A stretch of 44,730 bases of DNA, from the NCBI GenBank assembly GCA_022072085.1, contig JAJVII010000016.1, forward strand, positions 1 to 44,730. Direction: 5' to 3'. Positions within the stretch are counted from its first letter, which is position 1; every line of letters starts with the position of its first letter. Positions 14,658 through 41,214 of the stretch are shown piece after piece. The stretch is from Phycisphaerae bacterium. Its GTDB lineage: Bacteria > Planctomycetota > Phycisphaerae > JAJVII01. The notes below the pieces were generated by a model. The model was given only the letters and a program-made list of their open reading frames with translations, had not been told where the DNA came from and searched no databases. The translations under genes and the position numbers were made by a program.

Positions 14658-14683
14658 AGCCCAGGGAACGGCTTCCCTGGGCT
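14658..14683 (-). terminator. Hairpin terminator downstream of ricT
   Basis: A perfect 11-bp stem, AGCCCAGGGAA (14658-14668), pairs with 14673-14683 across a 4-base loop, followed on the minus strand by TTTGCGG. The U-run is short, so termination may be partial, letting some transcription reach metG. Confidence 0.65.
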
Positions 14684-14723
14684 GGGCGTCGTCAGGACAG
14701 GTTACCACAGACTTGCGTTGGCG

Positions 14724-23031: not shown

Positions 23032-23059
23032 TTATCGGCGTTCGGTCCGACAGACTTGA
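23032..23059 (-). promoter_or_regulatory. Sigma-28 promoter for fliD
   Basis: Minus strand TCAA (23059-23056), 16 bp, then GCCGATAA (23039-23032), an exact match to the FliA -10 consensus. The predicted leader is about 60 nt. The known FliA consensus is TAAA-N15-GCCGATAA, so the -35 has one mismatch and spacing is one base longer. Confidence 0.75.
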
Positions 23060-26557: not shown

Positions 26558-26653
26558 GACTTGCCTGCCTCCAGTGAGTGAGCTGTTTTCTGGTTACTGT
26601 TACTTGTTGCCCTCGGGTTCACTTCGTTGTTCCCGGGGTTCCCTCTGTCCTGT

Positions 26654-26685
26654 CGGCGGACGGACAACTGCTGTCCAATCCGCCG
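26654..26685 (-). promoter_or_regulatory. Two-segment hairpin in the first flagellin leader
   Basis: The outer stem CGGCGGA/TCCGCCG (26654-26660 with 26679-26685) and inner stem GGACA/TGTCC (26662-26666 with 26672-26676) stack over a 5-base loop. It has no U-tract, so regulation of translation or stability is more likely than termination. Confidence 0.5.
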
Positions 26686-26693
26686 TTCCCCTG

Positions 26694-26759
26694 TTACCGA
26701 TCCGTTTCCCGTTGTGCAGCGCCGTGCGGTGGCGAGTGTGGATTCTTGCCGGCCTTCAC
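26694..26759 (-). CDS. Possible 21-codon leader ORF with near-perfect Shine-Dalgarno
   Basis: AAGGAGGTGAT (26775-26765, minus strand), 11 bases complementary to the 3' end of 16S rRNA, stands 8 bases (from AGGAGG) before a GTG at 26759. The ORF ends at TAA (26696-26694) about 135 nt before the flagellin ATG. The peptide begins VKAGKNPHSPPHG and resembles nothing known. It may be a leader peptide or a ribosome standby site. Translation is not shown. Confidence 0.3.
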   Translation of the reverse strand: MKAGKNPHSPPHGAAQRETDR

Positions 26760-26882
26760 CGTTATCACCTCCTTCTCGTGGCCTGCCATCGCGGTTAAGC
26801 CGGCTCCGCCGCCCTCACCAGTGCTGCTCCGCTTCCTGTGCGGTCTCCGCCGCCTGATCTCGGACCCTGGATACGGTCAGTG

Positions 26883-26910
26883 CCATCGTCTGACGGGGAG
26901 ACCGACTTTA
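26883..26910 (-). promoter_or_regulatory. Candidate sigma-28 promoter for the first flagellin
   Basis: Minus strand TAAAGTC (26910-26904) and GACGATGG (26890-26883), with 16 bp between TAAA and the -10, as in fliD. The -35 is excellent; the -10 matches 5 of 8. It lies between the csrA terminator and the flagellin leader. Confidence 0.55.
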
Positions 26911-26962
26911 GATATGAAACGCCGAATTCCACGCCCCCCGTCACCGCCGGCAGCACGGCTCA

Positions 26963-26995
26963 CAAAAAGGCGACGGCCCGTGGCCGGGCCGTCGC
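26963..26995 (-). terminator. Rho-independent terminator after csrA
   Basis: GCGACGGCCCG (26970-26980) pairs perfectly with 26985-26995 across a 4-base loop; the minus-strand tail is CTTTTTGTG. It separates csrA from the flagellin promoter. Confidence 0.93.
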
Positions 26996-27052
26996 TGTCC
27001 AGAGGGTTATCGGATTATGTCCGCCGGCGAGGGATCGCCGGGTCGCGCTTGA

Positions 27053-27313
27053 TCAGGGTTGCCCGCTTTGCTCGGGGCCCTGGGGGGGCTGCTTGCCCGG
27101 TGGCTGGATGTCCTTCAGGTCTTCCGCCTTCATCTGCGAAGCCTCGCGATTCTCGCGCTTGATGGCCTCGTAGACTTCCTTGCGGTGCACGGCAATGTGC
27201 TTGGGCGCCGTGATTCCCAGACGGACCTTGTCCCCGCGGATGTCGACGACGGTGATCTCGATGTCGTCGCCGATCATGATGGTTTCGTCGCGTTGTCTGC
27301 TGAGCACCAGCAT
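27053..27313 (-). CDS. csrA: Carbon storage regulator CsrA
   Basis: An 86-residue RNA-binding translational regulator. The core [20 protein letters not shown] (1-20) through [20 protein letters not shown] carries the conserved residues, including the arginine in VHRKE that contacts GGA RNA. A 20-residue Pro/Gln-rich tail extends beyond the usual 61-75 residues. The start ATG 27313 is set by the conserved first residues (the longer reading is non-homologous), with AAGGA upstream. Position next to fliW and two flagellin genes matches the FliW-CsrA-flagellin switch known from Bacillus and Campylobacter. Confidence 0.95.
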
Positions 27314-27540
27314 CGGCGTTTCCTTCCGTGGAAAGTGAAGACTCACTTCACCCGTCACGCCCGGCCTGCCTCCGTGCAGGCGCGAACGGCGATAGCAGGA
27401 ACCGCGCCGCGCGATTCGGAACTCTATATCGGCTAGGGGCGTTGCGAAAGATTCGCCCAAAGTTCGCCGATTTGAGGCCCGCCGGCACGGGTCCGGCCGT
27501 CGCTGCGGCGCCCCGGAGCGAAGCGCCGCCGGCCGACGGA

Positions 27541-27993
27541 TCAGGCCGTTCGGGACATGTCCCGGTCGCGCGCGGGCAGTTGCACCAGCGGATGCCGCGT
27601 GGTGTAACGCTTCTCCGACAGGACCATCTGCATGGCCGTCCGGTTGGCGGGGTTCACCACGATCGGACCCTGGAGGTTGCCCGTGAGCACATGGTCCACC
27701 TTGTTGACGATGACGAAGAGCTGAAGGGGTTGGCCGTCGTCAGCCGACAGTCGGCTGCGCTCTTCCGGCCGCACCGTCACCTGGTAGTCCGGCACGAACA
27801 GCCGCGGGTCGGTCACCACGAACGCCAGGCTTTCGTCCTCCACCGCCTGCAGCCAGTAGAAGCTGGACTGCTCGCCGGTGCTGATGAGGGCGAACCGCTT
27901 GGCGGCCGGGAACCCCACGGGTCCGTCGGGGAAGTAGATCAGGCGATCTGCGTCCACCTGGACCGGACCGAACCGGGTCGTCTGAATCATCAT
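27541..27993 (-). CDS. fliW: Flagellar assembly factor FliW
   Basis: A 150-residue Fli[26 protein letters not shown] at the N-terminus, [19 protein letters not shown] (45-63), and FVIVNKV near 92-98 with [21 protein letters not shown]. In other bacteria FliW binds and inhibits CsrA and is itself titrated by flagellin, so that flagellin translation follows secretion. Two ATG codons are tandem (27993, 27990). The SD region holds a small GGA-loop hairpin (28008-28022). It follows flgL by 73 bp and precedes csrA. Confidence 0.94.
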
Positions 27994-28007
27994 CGCTCCT
28001 GCTCCTT

Positions 28008-28058
28008 CCCGCCTCCTGCGGGATTACGCGGAAACTGCGCGTCCCGATCCATCGGGAC
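28008..28058 (-). promoter_or_regulatory. fliW leader with two hairpins
   Basis: CCCGC-AGGAG-GCGGG (minus strand, 28022-28008) shows GGA in a 5-base loop and overlaps the ribosome-binding region of fliW. Upstream is an 8-bp palindrome, GTCCCGATCCATCGGGAC (28041-28058). Either may regulate fliW; no promoter motif is clear in this gap. Confidence 0.4.
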
Positions 28059-28066
28059 CGGCGCTG

Positions 28067-29998
28067 TCAGAGATAGTCCAGCAGACTCAGGTTCAGCACG
28101 CGGGCGGCGGCTGCCAGCCCCGCCTGGTACTGCGTCTGCAACTGCTGGAACAGAATCACCGCCTCGGTGAAATCCATGTCGCGCACCTGGCTCAAGAGCG
28201 TCTGGGTGTCCAGCGTCTGCGTGTCCAGGTGGTCCACCTGCTGCTGGGCCTGCGAGGCGACCGCCCCGGTCCGCCCGCGGATCTCGACCAGGTTGTCAAC
28301 GTCCGATTGCAGGCGGTCGGCGTATAGCGAGATCGCGCCCAGGTCGCCGCTCCGCAGGGCGTCGCGCAGCCCGACCAGGTGGGAGAAGATGCCGTCTGTC
28401 CGCACCCCGCTGACGTCGTCGCCGGTCAGGGTCGCGCCGGGATTGGCCACGCTCTGGACCAGCCCCAGTTCGCCCGGCGCCGCCGACAGGTTCAGCGCCG
28501 ACACCGACAGGTCGAAGCCCCCGTCGGTCGAACTGTCGACCAGTTCCAGGCCGCCGTCGGCGCCGACGCGGGCCAGCAGGTCGCCGCCGTTCTCGTCGTC
28601 GCCGTTGATCAGGTCGATCACGTCACCGATGGTGCGGGCCGAGTCGAGGTTCACGTCGATCGTCGTGCCGTCGCGCTGGGTGATCCGCAGGTCGTCGAAC
28701 CCTCCGACCGTGTGGACGCCGGATCCGCCGTTCAGATCGGCCAGCAGAACGTTCTGGTGAAAAGTGCGGAGCCCCAGGTCGTCAGCCGTCGTCCCGCCGT
28801 TCTCGGCCACGTTCAGCACCGAGCCGGCGCGAAGGTTGACCAGCGAGATGCCGCCGCCGTTGACGCGGATGCTCGCCCGGACCCCGACGCCCGCCTGGTT
28901 GATCGCGTTGAGGATGTCCTGCACCGTTTCTGCCGACGACAGGTCGATCGCCGCCGAGTCCGTGCCGTTGGTGATGACCAGGCCCGAGGCCCGGTCCAGG
29001 CCGGTCCCGGCGTTGAGCGAATCCCACGCCGTTCGGCCGGTCACCTGCGGATCGACATCGCCGCCGGCCAACGTTGCCCCCGCGCCGGTCTTGCTGTAGA
29101 TGCCCAGGTCGCGGGCGGCGCTGCCACTGCCCTGTTCGATCACCGTGATGTCCGCGCCCGACTGGCTGCTGGTGAGGGTCAGCCCGTTGCCCGCGGCGTT
29201 GATAGCCATCGTCATGCCGGCCGGCGCGGCATCGTTGAAGCGGTCGATCACATCGCCCACCGTCGCGGCGCCGCTGAGGTCGATATCGACCGCCGGGTTG
29301 ACGCCGTCGCTAACGCGGATCGCCGCCAGGCTCACGCCGCGACCGGCCGCCCCGTTGAGATCGGCGACCAGCGTGTCGTCGGTCAGGATCGGGTCCAGAT
29401 CCTTGCCGGTCGTGACGTCGCCGCTGGCGCCGCCGAAGACCGATCCGCCGTCGAGCTGGAGCCGGACCAGCCAGTTCTCGCCCAGGGCCATGTTCACCGG
29501 GTCGCTGCCGCCGTTGTACTGGATGGCCCCGGAGGCGTCGGCGAAGGGGTCTCCCGCGCCGGCCGACCCGTCGAACAGGTAGCGCCCCTGGTAGGTGCGG
29601 TTGGCGACGCGCAGAAGCTGGTCGATGATCGAGTCCAGCAGCTCGGCGTTGCTGGAGCGCTCGGCGTCGCTGACGGTCGCGTCGGCCGACTGCAGCGCCA
29701 GCGTGTTCGCCTGGCGGACCAGGTCGGTCGCCTCGCCCAGGGCCGTGTCGGCGGTGGAGAGGAATCCGTTGGCGAAGTCCACGTTCTTCTGATACTGACC
29801 CAGCCGCGAGAGCAGTGAGGTGAGGTCGAGAATTCGGCCGGACGCGATGGGGCTCTCGCTGGGAAGCTGGTAGCGATTGCCGCTGGCCAGTTGCGCCTGC
29901 ACCTTGGCCATCGCCACCTGGGTGCGCTGGATCGAGGCGAGCGTCAGCTCGCTCATCCGCATCGTTCCCACGCGTCCGTTTGTCGTCGACACGGCCAT
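28067..29998 (-). CDS. flgL: Flagellar hook-filament junction protein FlgL (HAP3), enlarged
   Basis: A 643-residue junction protein, about double the usual length. The N-terminal D0/D1 (GRVGTMRMSELTLASIQRTQ, then LASGNRYQLPSESPIASGRILDL) and the C-terminal coil (TQTLLSQVRDMDFTEAVILFQQLQTQYQAGL, ending LNLSLLDYL) are intact. The middle has three tandem modules (about 210-313, 318-420, 420-515) with the same hook-IN pattern as in FliD (AAIDLSSAETVQDILNAINQ, TADDLGLRT). It is preceded by flgK with a 14-bp gap. Confidence 0.94.
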   Translation of the reverse strand: MAVSTTNGRVGTMRMSELTLASIQRTQVAMAKVQAQLASGNRYQLPSESPIASGRILDLTSLLSRLGQYQKNVDFANGFLSTADTALGEATDLVRQANTLALQSADATVSDAERSSNAELLDSIIDQLLRVANRTYQGRYLFDGSAGAGDPFADASGAIQYNGGSDPVNMALGENWLVRLQLDGGSVFGGASGDVTTGKDLDPILTDDTLVADLNGAAGRGVSLAAIRVSDGVNPAVDIDLSGAATVGDVIDRFNDAAPAGMTMAINAAGNGLTLTSSQSGADITVIEQGSGSAARDLGIYSKTGAGATLAGGDVDPQVTGRTAWDSLNAGTGLDRASGLVITNGTDSAAIDLSSAETVQDILNAINQAGVGVRASIRVNGGGISLVNLRAGSVLNVAENGGTTADDLGLRTFHQNVLLADLNGGSGVHTVGGFDDLRITQRDGTTIDVNLDSARTIGDVIDLINGDDENGGDLLARVGADGGLELVDSSTDGGFDLSVSALNLSAAPGELGLVQSVANPGATLTGDDVSGVRTDGIFSHLVGLRDALRSGDLGAISLYADRLQSDVDNLVEIRGRTGAVASQAQQQVDHLDTQTLDTQTLLSQVRDMDFTEAVILFQQLQTQYQAGLAAAARVLNLSLLDYL

Positions 29999-30012
29999 GA
30001 GTCGGTCCCGCC

Positions 30013-31707
30013 TCAGATGAGGTTCATGATTTCGCTGATGAGCTGGTTGACCAGCCCGATGTAATGCGACACGCCCTGGAACGCCTGCTGGTAGCGCATC
30101 ATGTCGATGGCCTCTTCGTCCAGGCTGACGCCGCTGACCGCGTCGCGCTGGGATCTGAGGGCGTCGGTCAGCGTCACGCTGGCCTCGGCTTCGGACTGGG
30201 CCGTCGCGCTGTCACTAGCCAGTTGCGTCACGAACTGGACGTAGAGGTCGTTCAGCGACGAGCCGCCCAGCGAGGTCAGCCGGGTGCTCCCCAGCCCGGC
30301 CAGGGCCAGGGCCGTGGTGTTGTCGCCCGGCTGGCCGTTGGCGGCCGCCGCGACCTTGTCGCCGGTCAGGTCCGACCGCACGGCGAACCCCGCGCCCAGG
30401 CTCCCGCTGAAGAACGTGTTGACCCCCAGCGCAGCCAGCACGCTGCTGCTGTCGCCGGAGAAGGTCATCGTGTAGCCGCTGTCGGCCGTCAGCTTCAGCG
30501 TCCCGTCGGGGTTGATCGAAGCGCTCAGATGGTCCACGCCGTCCAGGTCCGCCACCAGGCTGTTCAGCGATGTGTCCGTGCCGATCCCGTCCAGATCGAC
30601 CTGGATCAGGTGACTGGTCACTGTCCCGGTTCGCGTGTCGGTCAGGCTGATCTGGAAGGCGCCGTTGGTCGGCGTCAGGGAAAGGCCGGCTTCGTTCAGC
30701 GCGGCGTCTGCGTCGTCCACGCCGTTGGCGCCGCTGGTTGAGCTGTATCCCGTCAACCCCTGGCCGCTGGCGTGCAGCCGGTTCACCTCGTTGATCAGCG
30801 AGGCGGCCAACTGCTGAAGGTTGTCGATGGCCCGGTCCAGCCCACCGCTGCGGACGGAGGTCAGCCCGCCGATTTCGCCGCTGGCGATGCTCGCCAGTTG
30901 CCCGGTCGAGTCGGCGCGCACCAGCAGGTCGGGGAACTCCCCGTCGGTGTCGATCTCCACCGACAGCCCGCTGGAGCGCGTCCCGGTGACCAGCGGGGCC
31001 GAGCCGAGGTAGACGTTGATCTGGCCGGATTCGCCGTTGCTCGTGCGGACGTCCGCCAGTTCCGCCAGCCGGGCGACGGCCGCGTCGCGCTGATCGCGCA
31101 GGGCGCCGGCGCTCGCGTTGACCAGCCCGAACTCGACGCGGGTGATCTCGCCGTTGAGCGCCGCGATGCGGTCGATCAGTCCGTTGGCCTCGTTCACGTC
31201 CTGGCGGATCTTGTCGTTGACCTGCAACCGCGCGTCGACCAGGCCGTTGTATTGGTCGTTGAACGCCCGAGCCAGCGCCCCGCCGGTCTGGATCAGCAGC
31301 GAGCGGCTTGCCGACGAGCCCGGATCGTTGGCCAGGTCGCTGAAGGCGTTGAAAAAGTCCGTCATGCGGGTCGAAAGGTTCGTGTCGCCCAGGGCGTTGA
31401 CCAGCGCCTCGACTTGCTTGAGGATGTTGGCTGCCGACTCGGCCGCCGCCTGGTCGCCGGTGGCCGCCCGCAGCCGCGAGTTCACCGCCTCGTCAGTCAG
31501 ACGCAGCACGGTCGACAGTTCCACGCCGACGCCGGGCGCCAGGCCCGGAGCGACCTCCCCTCCGCTGACGGGCGTGAGCACAGCCTTCTGCCGCACGTAG
31601 CTGGGGTCGGACGCATTGGCGATGTTGTTGCCGATGACCTGGATGGCCGCCTGGTTGGCCCGGATGGCCGATCGCCCGATCTGCAAGCTTCCGTTGATCA
31701 GTCCCAT
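30013..31707 (-). CDS. flgK: Flagellar hook-filament junction protein FlgK (HAP1)
   Basis: A 564-residue HAP1. The N-terminal rod motif ANQAAIQVIGNNIANASDPSYVRQK (18-42), helical D1 with RMTDFFNAFSDLANDPGSSASR, an internal domain with QVDLDGIGTDTSLNSLVADLDG (about 375-400) and the C-terminal motif VSLDEEAIDMMRYQQAFQG are all present. Length is close to the E. coli protein, unlike the enlarged FlgL and FliD. It starts just after flgN (3-bp gap) and is exported by the type III apparatus with help of that chaperone. Confidence 0.95.
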   Translation of the reverse strand: MGLINGSLQIGRSAIRANQAAIQVIGNNIANASDPSYVRQKAVLTPVSGGEVAPGLAPGVGVELSTVLRLTDEAVNSRLRAATGDQAAAESAANILKQVEALVNALGDTNLSTRMTDFFNAFSDLANDPGSSASRSLLIQTGGALARAFNDQYNGLVDARLQVNDKIRQDVNEANGLIDRIAALNGEITRVEFGLVNASAGALRDQRDAAVARLAELADVRTSNGESGQINVYLGSAPLVTGTRSSGLSVEIDTDGEFPDLLVRADSTGQLASIASGEIGGLTSVRSGGLDRAIDNLQQLAASLINEVNRLHASGQGLTGYSSTSGANGVDDADAALNEAGLSLTPTNGAFQISLTDTRTGTVTSHLIQVDLDGIGTDTSLNSLVADLDGVDHLSASINPDGTLKLTADSGYTMTFSGDSSSVLAALGVNTFFSGSLGAGFAVRSDLTGDKVAAAANGQPGDNTTALALAGLGSTRLTSLGGSSLNDLYVQFVTQLASDSATAQSEAEASVTLTDALRSQRDAVSGVSLDEEAIDMMRYQQAFQGVSHYIGLVNQLISEIMNLI

Positions 31708-31710
31708 GGT

Positions 31711-32226
31711 TCACCCTACCGCCGAGAAGCAACCGGGGGTTATCGGCTGACGCGAGATGGCCCGTCTGCCGGTGCCGTCGTAGCAGCCCGTCTCTCGCCC
31801 GACCCGGGCGATTTCGCCGAAGAGTTGTCCGAAGAAATCGCGCATCCGTTCAGCCACGCGGTGGTTCACCCTCTGGGCCCGGCTGACATCGTCCAACCGA
31901 TGGGCCAGCCGGTCGGCCGCCTGGCTCAACTTCGTGCCGCTGGGGCCGCCGAGGCGTCGGGCCAGGTCGCGGACGCGGAGGCCGTCAGCCTGCGGGCCGT
32001 CCAGTCCCAGCCCCTCGCTCAGCCGTTCGCACTGCTGGCGGCGGTGCAGTTCCAGTTCACAGATTCGGTTGACCAGCTTCTGGATGTGGCCGCCGCTGGA
32101 TTCCATGGCCGCCGGGTCCGCCTTGCGCATCGCCTCGCGCTGCTGCGCGACCGCGTCGGCCAGTTCGCCGTGCAGGCGGGCCAGATCCTCGATCGTCGTC
32201 GTCAACTGTGTCAGCAGCTTCTGCAT
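31711..32226 (-). CDS. flgN: FlgN-like export chaperone
   Basis: About 171 residues, mostly helical (residues 1-130, coiled-coil pattern with heptad Leu and many Gln/Arg), matching FlgN, the cytoplasmic chaperone for FlgK and FlgL. Position directly upstream of flgK supports this. The ATG at 32226 overlaps the preceding stop as TGATG; a GTG one codon earlier (32229) is also possible. The last 25 residues are not conserved. Confidence 0.82.
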   Translation of the reverse strand: MQKLLTQLTTTIEDLARLHGELADAVAQQREAMRKADPAAMESSGGHIQKLVNRICELELHRRQQCERLSEGLGLDGPQADGLRVRDLARRLGGPSGTKLSQAADRLAHRLDDVSRAQRVNHRVAERMRDFFGQLFGEIARVGRETGCYDGTGRRAISRQPITPGCFSAVG

Positions 32227-32501
32227 CACTTGACCCTCGGGCGGTAGCCGCTCAGTTGCTTGTAAAGCGTTTCACCGAGACTGTTGTGGCTGGCTTGGCC
32301 CATCCGCTGAGAGAGCATCAGGTCGAGCTGGGCGGCAAAGTTCTTCTCGGCCTTGCCGCCGTAGCCGAGCTTCGTGTCGGTCAGCCGCGACTCGCGGGCC
32401 TCCTTCATCATCGTGCCGTAGAAGAACAGGCCGAGGAACTCGTCGATCTTCTGCCGCAGCGGGTCGCCGCCGGCCTGGGCTGTCGTCTGCGTGACGTTCA
32501 T
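32226..32501 (-). CDS. flgJ: Rod-binding protein, FlgJ N-terminal domain only
   Basis: A 91-residue protein corresponding to the rod-binding (rod-capping) half of FlgJ, including KIDEFLGLFFYGTMMKEAR (18-36) and NFAAQLDLMLSQRMGQAS. The peptidoglycan hydrolase domain of the E. coli-type FlgJ is absent, as in many non-enterobacterial flagella where a separate hydrolase is used. It is translationally coupled to flgN. Confidence 0.87.
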   Translation of the reverse strand: MNVTQTTAQAGGDPLRQKIDEFLGLFFYGTMMKEARESRLTDTKLGYGGKAEKNFAAQLDLMLSQRMGQASHNSLGETLYKQLSGYRPRVK

Positions 32502-32549
32502 CTCTGCCTCCTGCCTCGCATCGCCCGGGGCTCCGCCCGGGCCAGCCGA

Positions 32550-33626
32550 TCACTCGATAATCAGTTCGGCGTGGAGCTTGCCCGTGCGATGGATCATCTT
32601 GATGATCGCGATGCGGTCCTCCGCCGCCACCTTGAGCTGGTTGAGCGCGTCCAGCAGATTGGTCAGGCTCGCGCCGCCTTCCTTCTTGGAGTCCACGACC
32701 ACGAAGTCCTGCGTCACCACCTGCGGGTTGGACGCCGACGGCGGCGACGACGGCACGATCGTCGTGATCGACAGCCCCTTGTGGCTGATCGCGACCGGGC
32801 CGATCTCGACATCACCGGTGACGATGATGGTTCCCGTGCGCTCGTTGATGGTCACGCGGGCCTCGCTGGGCGGCAGGACAACTTCGAGGTTCAGCACGCG
32901 GCTGATGAAGCCGGCCGGGTTGCCCCGCTCGGGCTGAGGGATCCGCACGATGACGTTCTTGGGGTCCAGAGCCAGAGCGATCTGGGCCAGTTCACCGGGC
33001 GGGCTCTCGGCTTCGTTGATGATCGTCGCGATGGCCGACGCCATCGCCCAGGCCGCCTCGCCGTCCTGGAGCACCAGCGTGATCGTGCCATTCGAGATGA
33101 ACTGTCCGAAGATCTCCTCCTCCAGCACGGCGCCCTGGCGGACGACGGCGACGGTCGGAGCGTCCTCGTTCTCAATGACCAGCGGGCCCTCGGCCCAGGC
33201 GTAGATCGTCGGGTCCTTCTGGTTGGGCCCCTGGAGCGGGGTCATGAACAGCCGCCCGCCCTTGAGACTCTTGGCCGCTCCGATGCTGGAGACCTGCACG
33301 TCGATCGAGTCGCCTTCGCGCACGCCGTTCTCCGGCACGACCGCGACGACCGACACCAGGGCGATGTTGTTGGCGTTCTTCAGCTCCGCCGGAGTCAGCA
33401 CAGGGTTGGCGAACTTGCTGAGCATCGCCGCCAGCGGACGGATGGCCGGCAGATACTTGCCGCCGTCGCCGGTCCCCGCCAGCCCGACCACCAGCCCCAT
33501 GCCCAGGAGCCGATTGGTTCGCTGCCCCTTCAGCCGGCAGATGTCGTCGATCTTGACGGCCTGCACCGCCGCCGGCATCCAGCCCAGCATCGCCCCAATC
33601 AACGCCGCACTCAGAAACCGTCGCAT
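32550..33626 (-). CDS. flgI: Flagellar P-ring protein FlgI
   Basis: A 358-residue periplasmic protein. The signal peptide is residues 1-23 (ending AAVQAVK). The mature start KIDDICRLKGQRTNRLLGMGLVVGLAGTGDGG (24-55) is the FlgI signature, followed by NIALVSVVAVVP, GDSIDVQVSSIGAAKSLKGG and the C-terminal LLDALNQLKVAAEDRIAIIKMIHRTGKLHAELI. It forms the bushing ring in the peptidoglycan layer. Length is normal. Confidence 0.95.
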   Translation of the reverse strand: MRRFLSAALIGAMLGWMPAAVQAVKIDDICRLKGQRTNRLLGMGLVVGLAGTGDGGKYLPAIRPLAAMLSKFANPVLTPAELKNANNIALVSVVAVVPENGVREGDSIDVQVSSIGAAKSLKGGRLFMTPLQGPNQKDPTIYAWAEGPLVIENEDAPTVAVVRQGAVLEEEIFGQFISNGTITLVLQDGEAAWAMASAIATIINEAESPPGELAQIALALDPKNVIVRIPQPERGNPAGFISRVLNLEVVLPPSEARVTINERTGTIIVTGDVEIGPVAISHKGLSITTIVPSSPPSASNPQVVTQDFVVVDSKKEGGASLTNLLDALNQLKVAAEDRIAIIKMIHRTGKLHAELIIE

Positions 33627-33629
33627 ATT

Positions 33630-33700
33630 CAGACTCCCGAAAAGAGATCGCTCGCAGATTTCGTCCAGAGCGTCATATCTGCGTAATCTGCGGATGCCCT
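33630..33700. repeat. Degenerate ATCTGCG repeat between flgH and flgI
   Basis: The 78-bp gap contains CGCAGATTTCGTC and, inverted, ATATCTGCGTAATCTGCGGA: three units of AATCTGCG-type sequence. It interrupts an otherwise tight operon and resembles short dispersed repeats rather than a regulatory site. Confidence 0.5.
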
Positions 33701-33704
33701 CTTC

Positions 33705-34700
33705 TCACCACGGGTTCACCCAGTCGATCGCCTTTGGGAACAGGCCACGCCTGGTCGTGTCGCGGACCTGACCGGCGTGGGTCTTGCGGACCGTCAGGTC
33801 GGCCAACTGCGTCGAGAGCACCGTATTGTCCGCGTTCACGTCTTCCACGCGGCAGGCGCCGGTCAACTCGAACTGCTGCTCCTCGTCGTCGGTCTTGATG
33901 AACTTGCGGGCCGCCAGCAGCAGCGTGCCGTTCGGCTTAACGTCGACGACCTCGGCCGTGATTCGGCCGACGAACGAGTCGGCCCGCTTGACTTTGCCGT
34001 CGTTCTGGACCTTGCGGTCAGCCGACCCCTTCATCTCCGGCGAACCGGCTGCGGTCGGCTGGATCTGGAGGTTGGAGAGCTTCAGCTTGATCCACGCGTC
34101 GAGCTTCGCGTCGAAGTCGTACTTCTTCTCCAGGTCCGAAGTCCCGTCGCTCTGGTAGGTCGTTTCCTCGCGGACGATGATCGTGACCAGGTCGTGCTGG
34201 TGAAAGTTCCGCGGGGCAGCCGGCGCAATCGCGATGAAACTGGCCGACTGAAGCGCCGTGACCGCCGGGGTCGCGCTGGCGTCCACGCCGCGAGCGACGG
34301 CTGGGGCGGCTGCCGCGGGCGCGCTGCCGACAGCCATCGAACCTGTCGCAGGCAGCGGCGGCAGGGCCGGCGCCTGCGTCGTGTCGACCGAAGGCGGGGC
34401 CGCCGTTTCGACGGCCTGGATCACCGCACCGGCCGCCGTGGCGGCTGCGGCTGAGGCGTCGGCCGGCGCATTGGAGACCGCCGGGGTCGCCGGCGCCGTC
34501 CCGCCCGCGGCGGCCGGCGCCGTCGGCTGAGGCGGCAGGGCCGGCGTCTGGCGGGCATACGCCCACCACATCGGAACGTTGGAGCCGAACTGGCCCTGCT
34601 CGGCCCGGTTGAACATCGAGCTGGACTGGGCGGCCGCGTCCGGCGCCAGAGCGCCCAGCATGAGAGTCAGCGCGGCGGCGATGACGACGGTGGCTTTCAT
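33705..34700 (-). CDS. flgH: Flagellar L-ring protein FlgH (no lipobox)
   Basis: A 331-residue outer-membrane ring protein. The conserved part lies at about 165-331: HQHDLVTIIVREETTYQSDGTSDLEKKYDFD, KRADSFVGRITAEVVDVKPNGTLLL, and GACRVEDVNADNTVLSTQLADLTV. Its N-terminal signal peptide ends AAAQSSSMF and lacks the lipobox cysteine that anchors E. coli FlgH. Residues 50-155 are an Ala/Pro-rich low-complexity linker. The ATG overlaps the flgA stop (ATGA). Confidence 0.93.
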   Translation of the reverse strand: MKATVVIAAALTLMLGALAPDAAAQSSSMFNRAEQGQFGSNVPMWWAYARQTPALPPQPTAPAAAGGTAPATPAVSNAPADASAAAATAAGAVIQAVETAAPPSVDTTQAPALPPLPATGSMAVGSAPAAAAPAVARGVDASATPAVTALQSASFIAIAPAAPRNFHQHDLVTIIVREETTYQSDGTSDLEKKYDFDAKLDAWIKLKLSNLQIQPTAAGSPEMKGSADRKVQNDGKVKRADSFVGRITAEVVDVKPNGTLLLAARKFIKTDDEEQQFELTGACRVEDVNADNTVLSTQLADLTVRKTHAGQVRDTTRRGLFPKAIDWVNPW

Positions 34701-35875
34701 TTCCCACTCTCCGGTTTCAGCGGCGAAGCGGCGACTTCACTGCCGGGTTTGTTGCGGTTGGTTTCCTGGAGCGGCGTCGGGTCGAGCTGCACGGTGTCCG
34801 GCCCCGTGACGACGGCGTAGAACGGCTGCCGCGTCGCCTCATTGCGGACGATGATCTTCTGGCCGTAGATGCCGTCCTGCATCGCCCGGCCGACCGTCTT
34901 GACCATCAGGTTGCCGGTTCGGACCCAGACGGTGACCAGCTTGTTGCGGTGCACCAGGGCCAGCGGCTCCAGGTCGTCGCTACCGACGACCTGCTCGGGG
35001 CGGATGGTCCGCTTGGACTGCTGACCGACGACGGCGGCCGTCTCGCCAATCCGCTGGCTGTCCAGGTCCACCTGCCGCACGACGGCGCGAACGTCGTCGG
35101 CTGCGAGCACCTGGCCGCGGTTGATCTGTTTGGCTGCCACGACCACCGGGGCCGCCAGTTCCGCGTCCACGCGGAGGTCGGCCGACTTGACCAGGTGCTC
35201 GCGCGGGGCGGCGGCTGCGGGGCGACGGGGACCAGGCGCACCCGGCGGCTCCGGGTCGATCGCATAGACGCGGGCCGAGACGTCCACGAAGCGGGCGCCG
35301 ACGCGGCGGATGGCCACCTCGAATCGGAACTGCGGCCGCTGAAGCGACAGCAGCGAGCGGTCGGCTGCGGCGAAGTGCAGGTCCAGTCGCCCGCCGGCCG
35401 GCTGGAGCTGATCGATCAGCGCCTTGCGGATGACGCCGGCCAGACTGTCGGGGATCCGCTCCTCGGGCAACTGGACGATCTGGCCGTTGACGCCTTCGCG
35501 GAGCGTCTGGGAACGCTGCTGAAGTTCGTCGAGCTGCTGGGCCGCCGCCTGCACGCGCGTGACGCGGCAGGACGCCGCCCCGCCCAGCGACCAGACGGCC
35601 CGGTTGACATGAAGCGCGTCCAGGCGGCTGCGCAGATCGTTCAGCGTGATGGCCGACGACGCGCCCATCGCCGGCGCCAGGCCGACGACGAGCACCGCCA
35701 GGGCGTCGGCTTCGCCCTGGACGTTCGAGTGGATACGGGCGATCTGGCCCAGGCTGACCTGCTCGGTGTCCACCGGCGCCTGCGAGCGGAGGACGATCGT
35801 CTGCGCCAGGCAGGGCCCAGCCGGGCTCAGGATCGGCATCAGGATCAGCATTGCGACGATCGTTGCGTTTCTCAT
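34697..35875 (-). CDS. flgA: FlgA, P-ring assembly chaperone (enlarged)
   Basis: A 392-residue periplasmic protein with a signal peptide (1-25, ending PCLAQ). The C-terminal half has the SAF-domain pattern VVVAAKQINRGQVLAADDVRAVVRQVDL and KRTIRPEQVVGSDDLEPLALVHRNKLVTVWVRTGNLMVKTVGRAMQDG, which is characteristic of FlgA. The N-terminal 200 residues are longer than in E. coli (219 total) and only weakly conserved. It is coupled to flgH and needed for FlgI ring assembly. Confidence 0.92.
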   Translation of the reverse strand: MRNATIVAMLILMPILSPAGPCLAQTIVLRSQAPVDTEQVSLGQIARIHSNVQGEADALAVLVVGLAPAMGASSAITLNDLRSRLDALHVNRAVWSLGGAASCRVTRVQAAAQQLDELQQRSQTLREGVNGQIVQLPEERIPDSLAGVIRKALIDQLQPAGGRLDLHFAAADRSLLSLQRPQFRFEVAIRRVGARFVDVSARVYAIDPEPPGAPGPRRPAAAAPREHLVKSADLRVDAELAAPVVVAAKQINRGQVLAADDVRAVVRQVDLDSQRIGETAAVVGQQSKRTIRPEQVVGSDDLEPLALVHRNKLVTVWVRTGNLMVKTVGRAMQDGIYGQKIIVRNEATRQPFYAVVTGPDTVQLDPTPLQETNRNKPGSEVAASPLKPESGK

Positions 35876-35922
35876 GGTCCGTCCTCGCGTTCACGCCGCC
35901 CGGCGGCCGGCGGCGGTCAGGC

Positions 35923-36732
35923 TTAGTAGCGCCGCAGGTTGCCGATGACCTGGAGAGTCTCGTCGGCAGTCTGGATCGACTGGCTGTTCAGCTCGAACGC
36001 CCGCTGGGCCTTGATGAGTTCCACAAGTTCCTTCACCGGATCGACGTTGGAAGATTCGAGGAACTCCTGGATGGTGATGCCCAGGCCCTCGCTGCCCGGA
36101 TTGGCCAGCGTCGGCGGGCCCGACGCTTCGCTCTCGACGAACATGCTGCCGCCGATCTGCTGAAGGCCGGCCGGGTTGATGAACCGGGCGAGCTGGATCT
36201 GCCCGACTTCCTCCGGCGTGATCGAGGAGGGCGTGGTGACGAACACCCGCCCGTCCGAACCAATGTCGATCTTGGTGTGGTCGGACGGGATGGAGATCGG
36301 CGGCTCCAGCGCGAAGCCCTCGGCGTTGCCGAGCACCAGGTTGCCGTCGCTGTTGACGAAGAAGTTGCCCGACCGCGTGTAGCCCACGCCCGTGCCGAAG
36401 TCGTCGAAGATCTTCACCTGGAAGAAGCCGTTGCCCTGGATGGCCATGTCCAGTTCGCGGCCGGTCTGGTCGAGGTTGCCCTGCTCGAACATCGCCTGCG
36501 TGTTGCTCACGCGGACGCCCAGGCCGACGTACGTGCCCGCGGGCGTCTTGATGCCCTGGGCGTTGGTCGTGCCCGGGCGGTGCAGTTCCTGGTAGATCAG
36601 GTCCTCGAAGTTCACGCGGCTGCGGCGGAAGCCGACCGTGTTGGCGTTGGCCAGGTTGTTGGCCGACACGTCGATCTGCGTCGAAAGCGCGTTCAGCCCA
36701 GTCGCCGCCGAGTGCAATGCCGTCGTTGCCAT
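35923..36732 (-). CDS. flgG: Flagellar distal rod protein FlgG
   Basis: A 269-residue distal-rod protein. The start ALHSAATGLNALSTQIDVSANNLANANTVGFRRSR is the rod/hook motif, with LDMAIQGNGFFQV (81-93) and YTRSGNFFVNSDGNLV; the C-terminus has VELIKAQRAFELNSQSIQTADE and ends IGNLRRY. Length and the lack of a large insert fit FlgG rather than FlgE. It follows the other rod gene by 58 bp. Confidence 0.95.
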   Translation of the reverse strand: MATTALHSAATGLNALSTQIDVSANNLANANTVGFRRSRVNFEDLIYQELHRPGTTNAQGIKTPAGTYVGLGVRVSNTQAMFEQGNLDQTGRELDMAIQGNGFFQVKIFDDFGTGVGYTRSGNFFVNSDGNLVLGNAEGFALEPPISIPSDHTKIDIGSDGRVFVTTPSSITPEEVGQIQLARFINPAGLQQIGGSMFVESEASGPPTLANPGSEGLGITIQEFLESSNVDPVKELVELIKAQRAFELNSQSIQTADETLQVIGNLRRY

Positions 36733-36790
36733 CTTTCATCTCTCCATTGGTTGCAGCAGGTCCGCGCGATTCCGGCGCGGATCACTTGCC

Positions 36791-37570
36791 TTACTGGAGT
36801 CTCGCGATGTCGTTCACCGCGTGGTCCAGGGTCGAGTCCTGATACTTGATCATGTTCGCGTTGGCCTCGTAGGCCCGCTGGGTGTCGATCATGTCGGCCA
36901 GCATCCGCGTGGGGTCGACCGCGGAGGTCTCGACGAACCCCTGGAGCACGTTGCCGGCGAACGCCTTGCCCTTCGCGCCCGACGGGGCGACGAACTGCCC
37001 CTCGCCCATCTTGACCAGCCGATGCGGGTCGTCGAAGCTCTCCAGCCCCAGCGTCGCGACCGAGTCGTGTCCCTGGCTGATCGCGCCGGTCTGGTCGATG
37101 CTCACCCCGCCGGCGTTGGGGTCCAGCACGATCGGTTTGCCGTTGTTGTCCAGCACCGCGAGGTTCGAGGTCCGCGTCACCAGCCGCCCCTCGACGTCCA
37201 TCATCAGGCGGCCGTCGCGGGTCAGCCGCGCCTGTCCACCGGGCCCCTGGACCTTGAGGAAGCCGTTGGCCACCGGTCCGGTGTCCAGGGCGAGGTCCAG
37301 CGCGTCGCCCGTCTTCTCCAGGCTGCCGGGGGTGAACTCGGTGACGGCCCGCAGGGTCCCGACCCCGCCGCTGAGGCCCGCCAGGCTCGGCACGAGCGCC
37401 GCCCGGCGTTCCATCCCCGTCGTCGGCGCCAACAGCGGCAACGCCCGCACGATCGCGCTGTCCGGCTTGAAGCCGACGGTGTTGGAGTTGGCCAGGTTGT
37501 TCGCCTGCAACTCCTGGCGATACTGGTTCACGCCCAGCCCGCCGGCCGAGATGTAGAGTCCGTAGAGCAT
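36791..37570 (-). CDS. flgF: Flagellar proximal rod protein FlgF
   Basis: A 259-residue rod/hook-family protein: LYISAGGLGVNQYRQELQANNLANSNTVGFKPDS at the N-terminus, LDLALDTGPVANGFLKV, TRDGRLMMDVEGRLVTRTSN, and the C-terminal VDPTRMLADMIDTQRAYEANANMIKYQD. It is paired with FlgG, and the more divergent N-terminal motif suggests FlgF. It starts one base after the small 81-aa gene. Confidence 0.9.
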   Translation of the reverse strand: MLYGLYISAGGLGVNQYRQELQANNLANSNTVGFKPDSAIVRALPLLAPTTGMERRAALVPSLAGLSGGVGTLRAVTEFTPGSLEKTGDALDLALDTGPVANGFLKVQGPGGQARLTRDGRLMMDVEGRLVTRTSNLAVLDNNGKPIVLDPNAGGVSIDQTGAISQGHDSVATLGLESFDDPHRLVKMGEGQFVAPSGAKGKAFAGNVLQGFVETSAVDPTRMLADMIDTQRAYEANANMIKYQDSTLDHAVNDIARLQ

Positions 37571-37571
37571 C

Positions 37572-37817
37572 TCAGTTCACCTTCCGGGCCGCGCCCGACT
37601 CGCCCTCGATCACGCCGGTCCGCTGCATCTCGCGTCGGCGGACGGCGCTGCGGACGCGGGCGATCATCTGCTCGCCGGTCGCCATCCGGGCCGTCGCGAT
37701 CAGGTGCCGGGCCACCTGCTCCATGTTCAGCCGCTCCCAGAACGAGTTGATCAGGTCGGCGGCCGGACCGGCTGGCCGGGTCGGCTCGGCAGATGTGTCG
37801 CGGGGCAGGTTCTGCAT
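37572..37817 (-). CDS. Small unknown gene, first of the flagellar operon
   Basis: An 81-residue basic, helical protein (DLINSFWERLNMEQVARHLIATARMATGEQM, then RVRSAVRRREMQRTGV) with no recognised family. AAGGAG sits 7 bases before the ATG, and it begins about 50 nt after the sigma-54 start point, so it is expressed with the flagellar genes. It ends one base before flgF. It is not clearly a FlgM, but a regulator or a rod accessory protein is possible. Confidence 0.6.
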   Translation of the reverse strand: MQNLPRDTSAEPTRPAGPAADLINSFWERLNMEQVARHLIATARMATGEQMIARVRSAVRRREMQRTGVIEGESGAARKVN

Positions 37818-37855
37818 GACGGCTCCTTCCGTGTCGGCGGCCTGGCCGATGTGGC

Positions 37856-37870
37856 TCAGCCACTGGCTGA
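37856..37870 (-). promoter_or_regulatory. Inverted repeat at the sigma-54 start site
   Basis: TCAGCCACTGGCTGA is a perfect 7+1+7 inverted repeat. It starts at about +1 relative to the sigma-54 promoter. It may be a repressor site or a stabilising 5' mRNA hairpin. Confidence 0.45.
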
Positions 37871-37879
37871 CCCCTTAGA

Positions 37880-37895
37880 AGCAACCGGCGTGCCA
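37880..37895 (-). promoter_or_regulatory. Consensus sigma-54 promoter of the flagellar operon
   Basis: Minus strand TGGCACGCCGGTTGCT: all positions of TGGCACG-N4-TTGCW are matched. The distance to the 81-aa gene start is about 63 bp. No housekeeping -35/-10 is visible here. A sigma-54 activator site is expected further upstream (about 37950-38100) but none is recognised. Confidence 0.9.
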
Positions 37896-38130
37896 CTGCG
37901 AGGATTGGCCGCGGGACGGCGAGAGAGATAGAGATTGCAATATGTTTTATGGTAATGAGTTACGCGAGTTCTACACTGCCCATCGTCCATCGGGCCGCCC
38001 CCGTTTCAGTGGCGCAGCATTCGCCCGGACGCGCAATTCCTGCCCTCCCCGCCCGGCATGATCTGCGTCCACCCGCTGCCTCCGGCCGCCCCCCTCCCCC
38101 TCTCGCCCAGGCGCAGCCGCTCCCATTTTC
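37896..38130. other. Intergenic region between flagellar and arsenic operons
   Basis: An AT-richer stretch (37925-37985) is followed by a C-rich stretch (38080-38110). No ORF on either strand is convincing. The AT-rich part could hold the activator or bending-protein site of the sigma-54 promoter; I see no motif that proves it. Confidence 0.4.
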
Positions 38131-38133
38131 CAC

Positions 38134-38162
38134 TTGATTCGTTATTTGGCGAAGTGTAATAT
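38134..38162 (+). promoter_or_regulatory. ars promoter with ArsR-type operator
   Basis: TTGATT (38134-38139), 17 bp, TAATAT (38157-38162). Within the spacer lies the inverted repeat TTCG-N8-CGAA (38138-38141, 38150-38153), where ArsR-type repressors usually sit. Repression by the product of the next gene is inference. Confidence 0.75.
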
Positions 38163-38189
38163 TGATCCGCCATCCTACTGGAGACCGGC

Positions 38190-38561
38190 ATGCGCGAGTT
38201 CATGGCCATCACCAAAGCCCTGGCCGACCAGAACCGCACGCGGATTCTGCTGTTCCTCGGCGACGGCGAACTCTGCGTCTGCCAGATCATCGAGATGCTC
38301 GGCCTGGCCCCCTCGACCGTCTCCAAGCACCTGACGATCCTGCACCAGGCCGGGCTGCTGGAGTCCCGCAAGCAGGGCCGGTGGATTCACTACCGCGTCG
38401 CCCGCGACGGCTCGCCCCAGGTTCGCAACGCGATCGAGTTCGCCCGGGCCGGCCTGGCCGACGACCCGCGAGTGGCCGAGGACCGCGAGCGTCTGGCCAC
38501 CGTGCTGAAGATGGACGTGGCGGACTTGTGCTGCCGCTACAAGACACAGGAGCCCACATGA
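38190..38561 (+). CDS. arsR: ArsR-family metalloregulator
   Basis: A 123-residue winged-helix repressor. ALADQNRTRILLFLGDGELCVCQII (10-34) contains the ELCVC arsenite-binding motif in helix 3, and LAPSTVSKHLTILHQAGLLESRKQGRWIHYRV is the DNA-recognition helix and wing. It would dissociate from the promoter upon As(III) or Sb(III) binding. Its stop overlaps the next start (ATGA). Confidence 0.92.
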   Translation: MREFMAITKALADQNRTRILLFLGDGELCVCQIIEMLGLAPSTVSKHLTILHQAGLLESRKQGRWIHYRVARDGSPQVRNAIEFARAGLADDPRVAEDRERLATVLKMDVADLCCRYKTQEPT

Positions 38562-38890
38562 AAGCGACCGTGGAAATCGAGGCCGGCATCTGCGGCCTGC
38601 GCACGACAGCCGAAGCCGACTGCCCCGACGGACAGAACGTGACGTTCCAGATTCGGACCGACTGCGAGAAGGTCCGGGCGCTGGCTGATCGGCTGGCGGC
38701 CGTCGGTCCGATCGACGCCTATCACGAGATCGGCCCGCGCAGCGAGGGCGTGTTGATGCAGACGGTTCGCGGCACGCTCACCGGTTGCTGCGCCGGCTGC
38801 GTGACGCCGGTCGGCCTGTTCAAGGCGATGCAGGTGGCAGCCGGCCTGGCGCTGCCGAAGGACGTCGCCATTCGCATGACCAAAGAGTGA
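38558..38890 (+). CDS. Small conserved cysteine-containing protein in the ars operon
   Basis: A 110-residue soluble protein, with cysteines at IEAGICGLRT, ADCPDG, TDCEKV and the pair GCCAGCVTPVGLFKAM. The overall look (a short alpha/beta domain ending in GLALPKDVAIRM) resembles DUF6951-type proteins, but I am not certain. Coupled to arsR by a 4-bp overlap and followed by arsC, it probably takes part in arsenic handling, perhaps as a metal-binding or carrier protein. No function is established. Confidence 0.65.
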   Translation: MKATVEIEAGICGLRTTAEADCPDGQNVTFQIRTDCEKVRALADRLAAVGPIDAYHEIGPRSEGVLMQTVRGTLTGCCAGCVTPVGLFKAMQVAAGLALPKDVAIRMTKE

Positions 38891-38895
38891 AGCCC

Positions 38896-39348
38896 ATGCC
38901 CCGCCGCCTGAAAGTCCTGTTCCTGTGCACCGGCAACTCCTGCCGCAGCCAGATGGCTGAGGGCTGGGCTCGGGCGCTGCGCAGCGACGCGGTCGAGGCC
39001 TGGTCGGCCGGCATCGAATCGCACGGGCTGAACCCCAACGCCGTGAAGGTCATGGCTGAGGCCGGCGTGGACATCTCCGCCCAGCGGTCCAAGAACGTGA
39101 GCGAACTGGCCGGCGTGCCGTTCGACTATGTCGTGACGGTCTGCGGCAACGCCCACGAGACCTGCCCGACGTTTCCCGGCCGAACGAAGGTCGTGCACGT
39201 CGGCTTCGACGATCCGCCCCGGCTGGCCAGGAACGCCGCCAGCAAGGAAGAGGCCCTCAGGCACTACCGGCGGGTCCGCGACGAGATTCGGGCGTTCGTC
39301 GAATCGCTGCCCGCGGCGCTGACGGGCAAGGAGGCCGGCGATGAGTAG
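38896..39348 (+). CDS. arsC: Arsenate reductase, thioredoxin-coupled type
   Basis: A 150-residue low-molecular-weight phosphatase fold enzyme. The catalytic loop [19 protein letters not shown] (CX5R, residues 9-27) is followed by the two resolving cysteines in [17 protein letters not shown]. This is the pI258-type ArsC, which reduces arsenate to arsenite using thioredoxin. Start ATG 38896 from the conserved N-terminus. It overlaps the transporter gene by 8 bp. Confidence 0.93.
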
Positions 39349-40417
39349 CGGCGTGGCCGGCAGGCTTTCGTTCCTCGACCGCTTCCTGACGCTCTGGATC
39401 TTCCTGGCGATGGGCGCCGGCGTGCTGCTGGGCTGGCTGGCCCCGGGCGTCGGCGACTGGATTGGTTCGCTTCGGCCGGCCGGCAGCCAGACGAGCATCC
39501 CGATCGCCGTCGGGCTGATCCTGATGATGTATCCCCCGCTGGCCAAAGTGAAGTACGAGGAACTGGGCGACGCGTTCCGCAACGTGAAGGTGCTCGGGCT
39601 TTCGCTGGTGCAGAACTGGGTGATCGGGCCGATCCTCATGTTCGCGCTGGCGGTCCTGTTCCTGCGGCATCAGCCGGAGTTCATGATCGGCCTGATCATG
39701 ATCGGTCTGGCCCGCTGCATCGCGATGGTCATCGTCTGGAACGATCTGGCCGACGGCGACACGGAATACTGCGCCGGGCTGGTCGCGTTCAATTCGGTCT
39801 TCCAGGTCTTCTTCTACAGCCTCTACGCCTGGCTGTTCGTGACGGTCCTGCCGCCGCTGCTGGGACTCACTGGCGCCGACACCTCCGGCATCACGATCAG
39901 CCGAATCGCCACCAGCGTCTTCATCTACCTCGGCATCCCGTTCCTGGCCGGCATGCTGACGCGCTTCGTGCTGGTCAAGGCGAAGGGCAAGCAGTGGTAT
40001 CACCAGCGGTTCATCCCCCGGATCAGCCCGATCACGCTGATCGCCCTGTTGTTCACCATCGTGGTGATGTTCTCGATGCAGGGCGGCCGCATCGTCGAGC
40101 GTCCCGGCGACGTCGCCCTGATCGCCGTGCCCCTGCTGATCTACTTCGTCGGCATGTTCCTGGTCAGCTTCTGGATGAGCCGCAAGGCCGGCGCCGACTA
40201 CGGCCGCACCGCAACGCTTTCATTCACCGCCGCGAGCAACAACTTCGAGCTGGCCATCGCCGTCGCCGTCGGCGTGTTCGGCATCAACCACGGGGCGGCC
40301 TTCGCCGCGGTCATCGGCCCGCTGGTCGAGGTGCCCGTGCTGATCGGGCTGGTCAACGTGAGTCTCTGGTTCCGCAGGAAATGGTTCGCCGGCGAGCCGG
40401 CAGGAGCGACGACATGA
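39341..40417 (+). CDS. acr3: ACR3-type arsenite efflux transporter
   Basis: A 358-residue inner-membrane exporter with about ten hydrophobic segments. Typical ACR3 elements: [17 protein letters not shown] (16-33), [38 protein letters not shown] with the conserved cysteine, and [21 protein letters not shown]. It removes As(III) from the cytoplasm using the proton gradient. It is the fourth gene of the operon and overlaps arsM by 4 bp. Confidence 0.94.
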
Positions 40418-41214
40418 GCACGCGACAGGATGCACACCGGATCGTCCAGGACGCCTACGCCGAGGTGGCCCGCCAGCAGTCCGGCTGCTGCCGCCCCAAG
40501 GCCTCCTGCTGCGACAAGAAGCCCTACACCGTCCCCGACCACCCCGTGCCCGAGTCGGAACTGGGCCTCTCCTGCGGCAATCCGCTGGCGTTCGGGCAGA
40601 TCAACGCGGGCGACGTGGTGCTCGACCTCGGCAGCGGCGCGGGCAAGGACGTGTTCCTGGCCGCCCAGAAGATCGGCCCCGCCGGCCGGGCCATCGGCGT
40701 GGACATGACGCCCGAGATGCTCGCGCTGGCCGAGAAGAACGCCGCCAAGTTCCTCAAGACCACCGGCCTGTCCAACGTCGAGTTTCGCGCCGGCCACATC
40801 GAGAACCTGCCCGTCGAGGACGCCTCGGTGGACGTGGCGATTTCCAACTGCGTCATCAACCTCTCGCCGGACAAGCCGAAGGTCTTCCGCGAAGTCTTCC
40901 GCGTGCTCAAGCCGGGCGGCCGCATGATCGTCAGCGACATCGTGCTCAACCGCGAACTGCCCCAATCGGCCCGCGAGGATGCGGACCTCTACTCGGCCTG
41001 CGTGGCCGGGGCGCTGCTGCGCGACGAGTATCTTCAGGCGATCCGCGATGCGGGCTTCGCGCGGGTGGACGTGCTGAGCGACAAGACCTACCGCTCCGCC
41101 AACGCCGGCGCCGACCCGGTTACCCTCGGCTCAGCCGACGTCCTGGCCGGCGTAGCCGCCAGCGTCACCGTCCTGGCCACCCGCCCGGCCAAGTGCTGCT
41201 GCTGCGGATCGTAG
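40414..41214 (+). CDS. arsM: Arsenite S-adenosylmethionine methyltransferase ArsM
   Basis: A 266-residue class I methyltransferase. The SAM motif [17 protein letters not shown] is near 68-84. The conserved arsenic-binding cysteines fit [22 protein letters not shown] and [10 protein letters not shown]. The N-terminus has an extra Cys-rich stretch ([14 protein letters not shown]) and the C-terminus ends in CCCCGS, both of which may bind metalloid. It methylates As(III) to volatile or excretable forms. It is the last gene of the ars operon. Confidence 0.92.

Follow-up and report, generated by a model that had tools for sequence, protein, structure and literature searches.

The sequence at 37880 to 37895 of the window (the whole 44,730-nucleotide stretch of Phycisphaerae DNA analyzed here) is very probably the sigma-54 promoter of a flagellar operon that runs from flgF to csrA, driven by an activator that is encoded next to flgB and acts on tandem palindromes shared with the flgB operon. 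What appears to be new is this palindrome, GCGCA-N5-TGCGC, which occurs class-wide ahead of the two flagellar sigma-54 promoters.

The sigma-54 site and the gene run behind it

The window contains a single exact match to TGGCAC-N5-TTGC, TGGCACGCCGGTTGCT on the minus strand at 37895 to 37880. The other 22 matches to this pattern all carry two mismatches, and about 46 matches with up to two mismatches are expected by chance. The GG and GC dinucleotides stand at the standard spacing within TGGCAC-N5-TTGCW. The predicted start given in Table 1 is arithmetic, with the C of the GC placed at -12, and 62 nt separate the site from the ATG of the first gene, an 81-amino-acid ORF with a good Shine-Dalgarno sequence (GGAAGGAG). 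Behind the site lies a collinear 11-kb run, presumably read as one transcript, that comprises this small ORF, flgF, flgG, flgA, flgH, flgI, a short ORF, flgN, flgK, flgL, fliW, csrA, and a terminator. Judged from the sequence and its surroundings, the site is real and heads the flgF-to-csrA gene run. A sequence-only reading had claimed a full match to the sigma-54 consensus ahead of a rod, ring, and junction operon, and both points were borne out.

Table 1. Features of the flgF-to-csrA region of the window
Feature	Position	Strand	Remarks
Candidate enhancer copy 1, GGGCAGGAATTGCGC	38031..38045	minus	10/12 fixed positions of GCGCAAnnnTTGCGC
Candidate enhancer copy 2, GGGCGAATGCTGCGC	38012..38026	minus	9/12; 19 nt from copy 1
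AT-rich stretch between enhancer candidate and promoter	37920..37969		33% GC vs 68% GC in the window
Putative sigma-54 (-24/-12) promoter, TGGCACGCCGGTTGCT	37880..37895	minus	Exact consensus match; predicted start ~37869
Inverted repeat TCAGCCA-C-TGGCTGA	37856..37870		At predicted start; spans about -1 to +14
First gene, 81-aa protein	37572..37817	minus	No Pfam or NCBIfam match
flgF	36791..37570	minus	Best NCBIfam match TIGR02490 flgF, 144 bits, below cut-off of 178.5
flgG	35923..36732	minus	Flg_bbr_C, Flg_bb_rod; called G from operon order
flgA (P-ring chaperone)	34697..35875	minus	
flgH (L ring)	33705..34700	minus	
flgI (P ring)	32550..33626	minus	
91-aa ORF	32226..32501	minus	No Pfam match; FlgJ-type rod-binding protein look, by eye only
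flgN	31711..32229	minus	
flgK	30013..31707	minus	
flgL	28067..29998	minus	TIGR02550, 209 bits vs cut-off of 127
fliW	27541..27993	minus	
csrA	27053..27313	minus	
Terminator-like hairpin	26970..26995	minus	11-bp stem, 10 GC pairs, T run

The hairpin at 26995 to 26970 is likely to be the end of the operon; the scan that returned it gave 10 terminator-like sites compared with 6.4 in shuffles. The 227 nt between fliW and csrA would leave room for a separate csrA promoter.

The 81-amino-acid protein has relatives in the class. An iterated profile matched 49 ORFs in 86 class flgF stretches at E values of 0.0022 or below, values that serve as a guide only since the database was small. The family shares a core of about 25 amino acids, resembling W-x-x-(L/I)-G-x-R-I-x-x-A-A. 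On the other side of the promoter, a divergent plus-strand group at 38190 to 41214 begins with arsR (Pfam HTH_5); the genes after it resemble, by eye, arsC and those for an ACR3 permease and an arsenite methyltransferase.

RpoN, its activators, and its sites in the genome

The sequence-only reading had also proposed that the genome be searched for rpoN, for a flagellar sigma-54 activator, and for the same motif upstream of other flagellar operons, and all three were found. The rpoN gene encodes the C-terminal domain and the RpoN box ARRTVAKYRK; the flagellar activator and further promoters are described below. Thirteen strong sigma-54 activator domains are present, each with a loop of the GAFTGA type (two read GSFTGA and one GAYTGA), and seven weaker matches to the activator family are without such a loop. 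The pattern TGGCA-N6-TTGCW occurs 79 times in the genome (40 + 39) compared with 8 times (4 + 4) for the reversed pattern, an approximately tenfold excess, and the consensus derived from the genome itself is TGGCACGCCGTTTGCW.

Many of these 79 strict sites precede secreted-looking proteins. At least 26 of the 79 ORFs next downstream end in a PEP-CTERM-like tail, with 28 ORFs overrunning the sequence taken, which suggests that the flagellar promoters are a minor portion of an extensive PEP-CTERM sigma-54 regulon. A sigma-54/PEP-CTERM (PrsK/PrsR) regulon has been described (Haft 2006, PMC1569441). The sites of this kind lie in the same genome and have the same sigma-54 motif as the flagellar sites; they differ in being nonflagellar and in showing no enrichment of the GCGCA-N5-TGCGC palindrome. 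Three further sites (L039, L187, and L198) precede genes that by eye resemble those for GroEL, DnaK, and Hsp20, and a similar chaperone trend has been reported in Planctomycetota (PMC12316311).

The flgF promoter across the class

The nearest named relatives of flgF come from Phycisphaerae MAGs, and the family of the window's own genome is represented by two genomes in the compared set. Its same-family partner (G001) has TGGCACACCAGTTGCA at the position equivalent to the flgF site; the contig begins 17 nt before that site and hence includes no enhancer region. For the wider survey, flgF loci were taken from 86 of the 306 class genomes with a match (30 loci and 56 picked by hand, best matches first and not at random), and about 700 nt upstream were scored with weights that we set from the sigma-54 consensus. 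At a score of 17 or higher, sites were found in 45 sense upstream regions, 6 antisense, and 0 reversed; at 16.5 or higher, the counts were 57, 9, and 5. The 45 higher-scoring sites cover 12 of 17 families. The promoter was not detected everywhere, since 41 of the 86 stretches fall below 17 and 29 below 16.5. Many of the class sites lie 260 to 450 nt ahead of flgF because a short ORF stands in between, and in many class genomes the ORF ahead of flgF is similar to the 81-amino-acid protein.

Among 17 named Phycisphaerae loci, several of which probably overlap the 86 genomes, a sigma-54 score of at least 16.5 was reached in 8 and a palindrome with at least 10 of 12 positions was present in 6, only partly at the good sigma-54 sites. 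Named loci from outside the Planctomycetota served as a loose outgroup only.

The flgB operon and its linked kinase and activator

In the window's own genome, flgB is likewise preceded by a sigma-54 site, at C9:62832-62817. The same-strand run behind it, presumably also read as one transcript, comprises flgB, flgC, fliE, fliF, fliG, fliH, fliI, fliK, flgD, flgE, motA, and motB, and no other sigma-54 site with a score of 17 or higher was found in this 35-kb stretch of C9. Genes for a histidine kinase and a REC-AAA-HTH_8 activator with the GAFTGA motif lie directly upstream of flgB. In the class, 27 of 30 flgB upstream regions have a site scoring at least 16.5 (antisense, 3; reversed, 1), and a sense-strand GAFTGA frame precedes flgB in 26 of the 30. 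Among the best 20 flgB matches from Planctomycetota outside the class, 15 have a sigma-54 site at this score, with 0 and 0 in the two controls.

The flgB-linked activator scores 365 bits against FlbD (NF050807) and 320 bits against FlgR (NF049963), in both cases short of the curated cut-off of 750, and it is below the NCBIfam cut-off for NtrC as well. In the class, the flgB-linked activators have a common helix resembling GHRxxTAxALGIGVRTLGxKLK. Of 28 activators examined, the helix was captured in 26, the pattern having picked another segment in G054 and G064, and RTLG is present in 25 of the 26, with RTLT in G044. Among the 13 activators of the window's own genome, RTLG occurs only in the flgB-linked one. 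Outside the class, the residue after RTL in Planctomycetota is R, S, I, or T instead of G.

At L063, three ORFs are interspersed among the flagellar genes: two of the 23S-rRNA-IVP family and one PD-(D/E)XK_3 ORF (15951-16268, 14632-15027, and 10746-11123). They sit between flgB and flgC, fliE and fliF, and fliH and fliI, with G-rich repeats flanking one of them; the genome has 8 matches to the IVP family in all.

A palindrome shared by the two promoters

A palindrome, GCGCAAnnnTTGCGC, of the form GCGCA-N5-TGCGC, recurs in class genomes ahead of the flgF and the flgB sigma-54 promoter and was scored by the number of matches at its 12 fixed positions. Because it was first spotted by eye in the flgB set, flgF serves as the test set, with genomes that partly overlap. 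At least 10 of 12 positions were matched in 18 of 28 flgB upstream regions (reversed pattern, 2; shuffled mean, 0.4), after G061 and G083 had been dropped from the 30 for want of a sigma-54 site. The flgF test set, consisting of the 55 of 86 stretches that scored 16.5 or higher and had 150 nt or more of upstream sequence, gave 34 (reversed, 3; shuffled, 0.8). When the count was repeated on all 86 stretches without selection, 49 were positive compared with 9 for the reversed pattern, and 13 of 17 families were represented. At the nonflagellar sigma-54 sites of the window's own genome, there was no enrichment (3 of 77; reversed, 4; shuffled, 1.2).

The palindromes cluster 60 to 110 nt upstream of the flgB site and 120 to 180 nt upstream of the flgF site. 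They often occur in two copies, most commonly spaced 20 nt apart, about two helical turns. In the 5.49-Mb genome, the only exact GCGCAANNNTTGCGC stands ahead of flgB, and allowing one mismatch gave no excess (12 places, compared with 15 for the reversed control). In the window, two degenerate copies lie in tandem 117 to 150 nt upstream of the sigma-54 site, with centers about 124 and 143 nt from TGGCAC. These copies, at 38012 to 38045, are probably the enhancer at which the switch protein docks, and the AT-rich stretch between them and the promoter may form a bend.

Two other candidate sequences were set aside. The 12-mer TTGCGCGTCCGG, present upstream of the genome's own flgF and flgB sites, overlaps a palindrome half-site, and the class-wide motif was preferred. 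A match to GTCAGCCAGTG ahead of flgB is formed by the end of the activator's coding sequence and is hence due to chance.

The operator may vary with the activator. At flgB, GGCA-N5-TGCC was found in 7 of 16 Planctomycetota from outside the class (the best 20 matches less four with scores below 16) and in 5 of 28 class members, compared with 0 of 16 and 14 of 28 for CGCA-N5-TGCG. A link between helix type and operator type is suggestive and not clean, since several class genomes with the G-type helix carry both operator forms.

Alternative explanations

If the sigma-54 match were a chance occurrence or a relic, the operon would be read from a sigma-70-type promoter, for example, within 37920 to 37969, where AT content is highest in the DNA immediately preceding the start of the operon. 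A consensus scan of 26000 to 38400 returned no sigma-70 promoter, with a consensus that may not suit this organism, and the sigma-54 site is conserved in a strand-specific manner across the class; we regard this explanation as most improbable. A second alternative concerns the inverted repeat, which the sequence-only reading had placed, correctly, as a perfect repeat at about +1 and which would on this account work as an operator or as a 5' hairpin, either stabilizing or repressing the transcript. Its 7-bp arms fall exactly on the predicted start, and FlrC sites in Vibrio are typically downstream of the start (PMC6504787). We examined repeat density and folded the 28 nt at the predicted start of 57 class promoters and 79 promoters of the window's own genome, each with controls. 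Repeats of equal or greater strength follow 6 of the 79 own sigma-54 sites and none of 79 upstream controls, and a distant class member, G175 (L250:466-478), shares with the window a 13-nt palindrome, CAGCCAGTGGCTG, in its flgF leader about 11 nt further downstream of the promoter. Against a role, however, the window has 13 perfect repeats with 7-bp arms and a 1-nt spacer (86 with spacers of 0 to 8), and 102 of 3,000 random 40-mers from it contain a repeat as strong. In the class, comparable repeats were counted in 4 of 57 cases, whereas controls gave 2 of 55 and 1 of 54; the same scan found none after the G001 flgF site and listed none downstream of the genome's own flgB site; and outside this locus CAGCCANTGGCTG occurs in only one of 311 collected loci. 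As an operator or hairpin, the repeat is thus not rare, not conserved, and not proven, and a function for it is quite unlikely. It is probably incidental.

The remaining alternative accepts the sigma-54 site as genuine and assigns it to a different one of the genome's 13 activators, or to one that acts without binding DNA, as reported for the enhancer-independent FlgR of Helicobacter (PMC3930126), with the palindromes serving something else. The degeneracy of the window's palindrome copies would be compatible with this. However, the flgF and flgB promoters share the palindrome class-wide, with its distances clustered, and the 77 nonflagellar sites show no enrichment of it; in addition, the flgB-linked activator still has an HTH domain, whose recognition helix is conserved. 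On balance, control by another activator is unlikely, and we favor the flgB-linked activator, acting at the palindromes.

Flagellar gene classes and late genes

The sequence-only reading had implied an RpoN-dependent middle class with sigma-28 for late genes, as in Pseudomonas, Vibrio, and Campylobacter. The RpoN-dependent part is supported by rpoN, the activator, and the flgF and flgB sites; the likeness to the Vibrio and Campylobacter class split did not hold. Judged by gene order, with internal promoters possible, fliF and fliG belong to the genes that follow the flgB sigma-54 site, and fliN-fliOPQR-flhBA-flhF-flhG-fliA (fliQ assumed from its place) is separated off by a terminator-like hairpin plus an AT-rich gap in which no sigma-54 site was found. 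On both counts, the split differs from that in Vibrio and Campylobacter.

For the late genes, a role of sigma-28 fits the presence of two FliA/WhiG-type sigma factors over the NCBIfam curated cut-off (C9:36292-36957 and C34:31014-31682); the late-gene promoters themselves are weakly indicated. Pattern searches for one form of the sigma-28 consensus gave no matches. One sigma-28-like candidate, a two-mismatch match, precedes fliD (23032 to 23058, minus strand), and 32 of 100 shuffles had at least one such match. By eye, a sigma-28-like candidate also precedes the second flagellin at about 25015 to 24980 on the minus strand (TAAAGTTT and then GCCGATGG), with a spacer 2 nt longer than in the sigma-28 consensus.

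Discussion

From the mechanism of sigma-54 we infer the following scheme of kinase, binding, and opening. RpoN-holoenzyme would bind 37880 to 37895 as a closed complex. The kinase would sense some stage of assembly or growth and phosphorylate the flgB-linked REC-AAA-HTH_8 activator, which would bind the tandem GCGCA-N5-TGCGC-type palindromes at both promoters, loop over the AT-rich stretch to contact the polymerase, and open the complex with ATP. With the flgB operon under the same regulator, the basal-body and hook gene runs would be switched on together.

The closest parallels are Caulobacter FlbD, acting at ftr sites, and Desulfovibrio DVU1063, each an NtrC-family activator of flagellar sigma-54 promoters with a palindromic operator. 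The FlbD operator is CCCGGCAxxxxxTGCCGGG, with the core GCA-N5-TGC (PMC3333781), and the GGCA-N5-TGCC form of Planctomycetota outside the class is close to the operators of FlbD (same N5) and DVU1063 (N4) given there. As in an FlbD/FlrC-type system, a palindromic enhancer appears, at the level of sequence, to be shared by the flagellar sigma-54 promoters. In contrast to these relatives, Phycisphaerae favor GCGCA-N5-TGCGC over GGCA-N5-TGCC at flgB (14 versus 5 of 28), and their activator has a receiver that is typical-looking by eye and a linked kinase, whereas the receivers of FlbD and DVU1063 are atypical (PMC3333781).

In having a kinase and a REC-AAA activator, the system resembles Vibrio FlrBC, Pseudomonas FleSR, and Campylobacter FlgSR. 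The flgF-to-flgL run resembles the class III operon of Pseudomonas. In these systems, rod and hook genes are under sigma-54 (PMC7064773 and PMC6504787); the genes for the MS ring, rotor, and export are turned on ahead of the sigma-54-dependent rod genes and are required for kinase signaling, and the system awaits FliF, FliG, and export apparatus alike (PMC7064773). Here, in contrast, fliF and fliG are themselves behind the flgB sigma-54 site; unless fliF has an internal promoter, the checkpoint must be a different one from that of Vibrio, Pseudomonas, and Campylobacter. A tentative possibility, which we hold to be less than even, is that the operator half-site of an FlbD-like system shifted in Phycisphaerae from GGCA to GCGCA along with the change after RTL (R/S/I/T to G) and that the kinase, with fliF and fliG behind a sigma-54 promoter, cannot simply await the MS-ring/rotor checkpoint of Vibrio and Campylobacter and reads another signal, possibly the separately transcribed export gate.

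Sigma-54 control or enrichment of motility genes has been predicted in Planctomycetia, in a source whose available part does not name Phycisphaerae for motility (PMC12316311). Our search of the literature on sigma-54 and flagellar regulation in Planctomycetes and Phycisphaerae, with subscription papers outside its scope, did not turn up this enhancer. Most of what is understood about the regulation of flagella comes from Proteobacteria. For Phycisphaerae, that regulation becomes directly testable with a specific operator, a named regulator, and data from across the class, and the order of the genes raises the question of whether a sigma-54 activator must in every case await the MS-ring/rotor complex.
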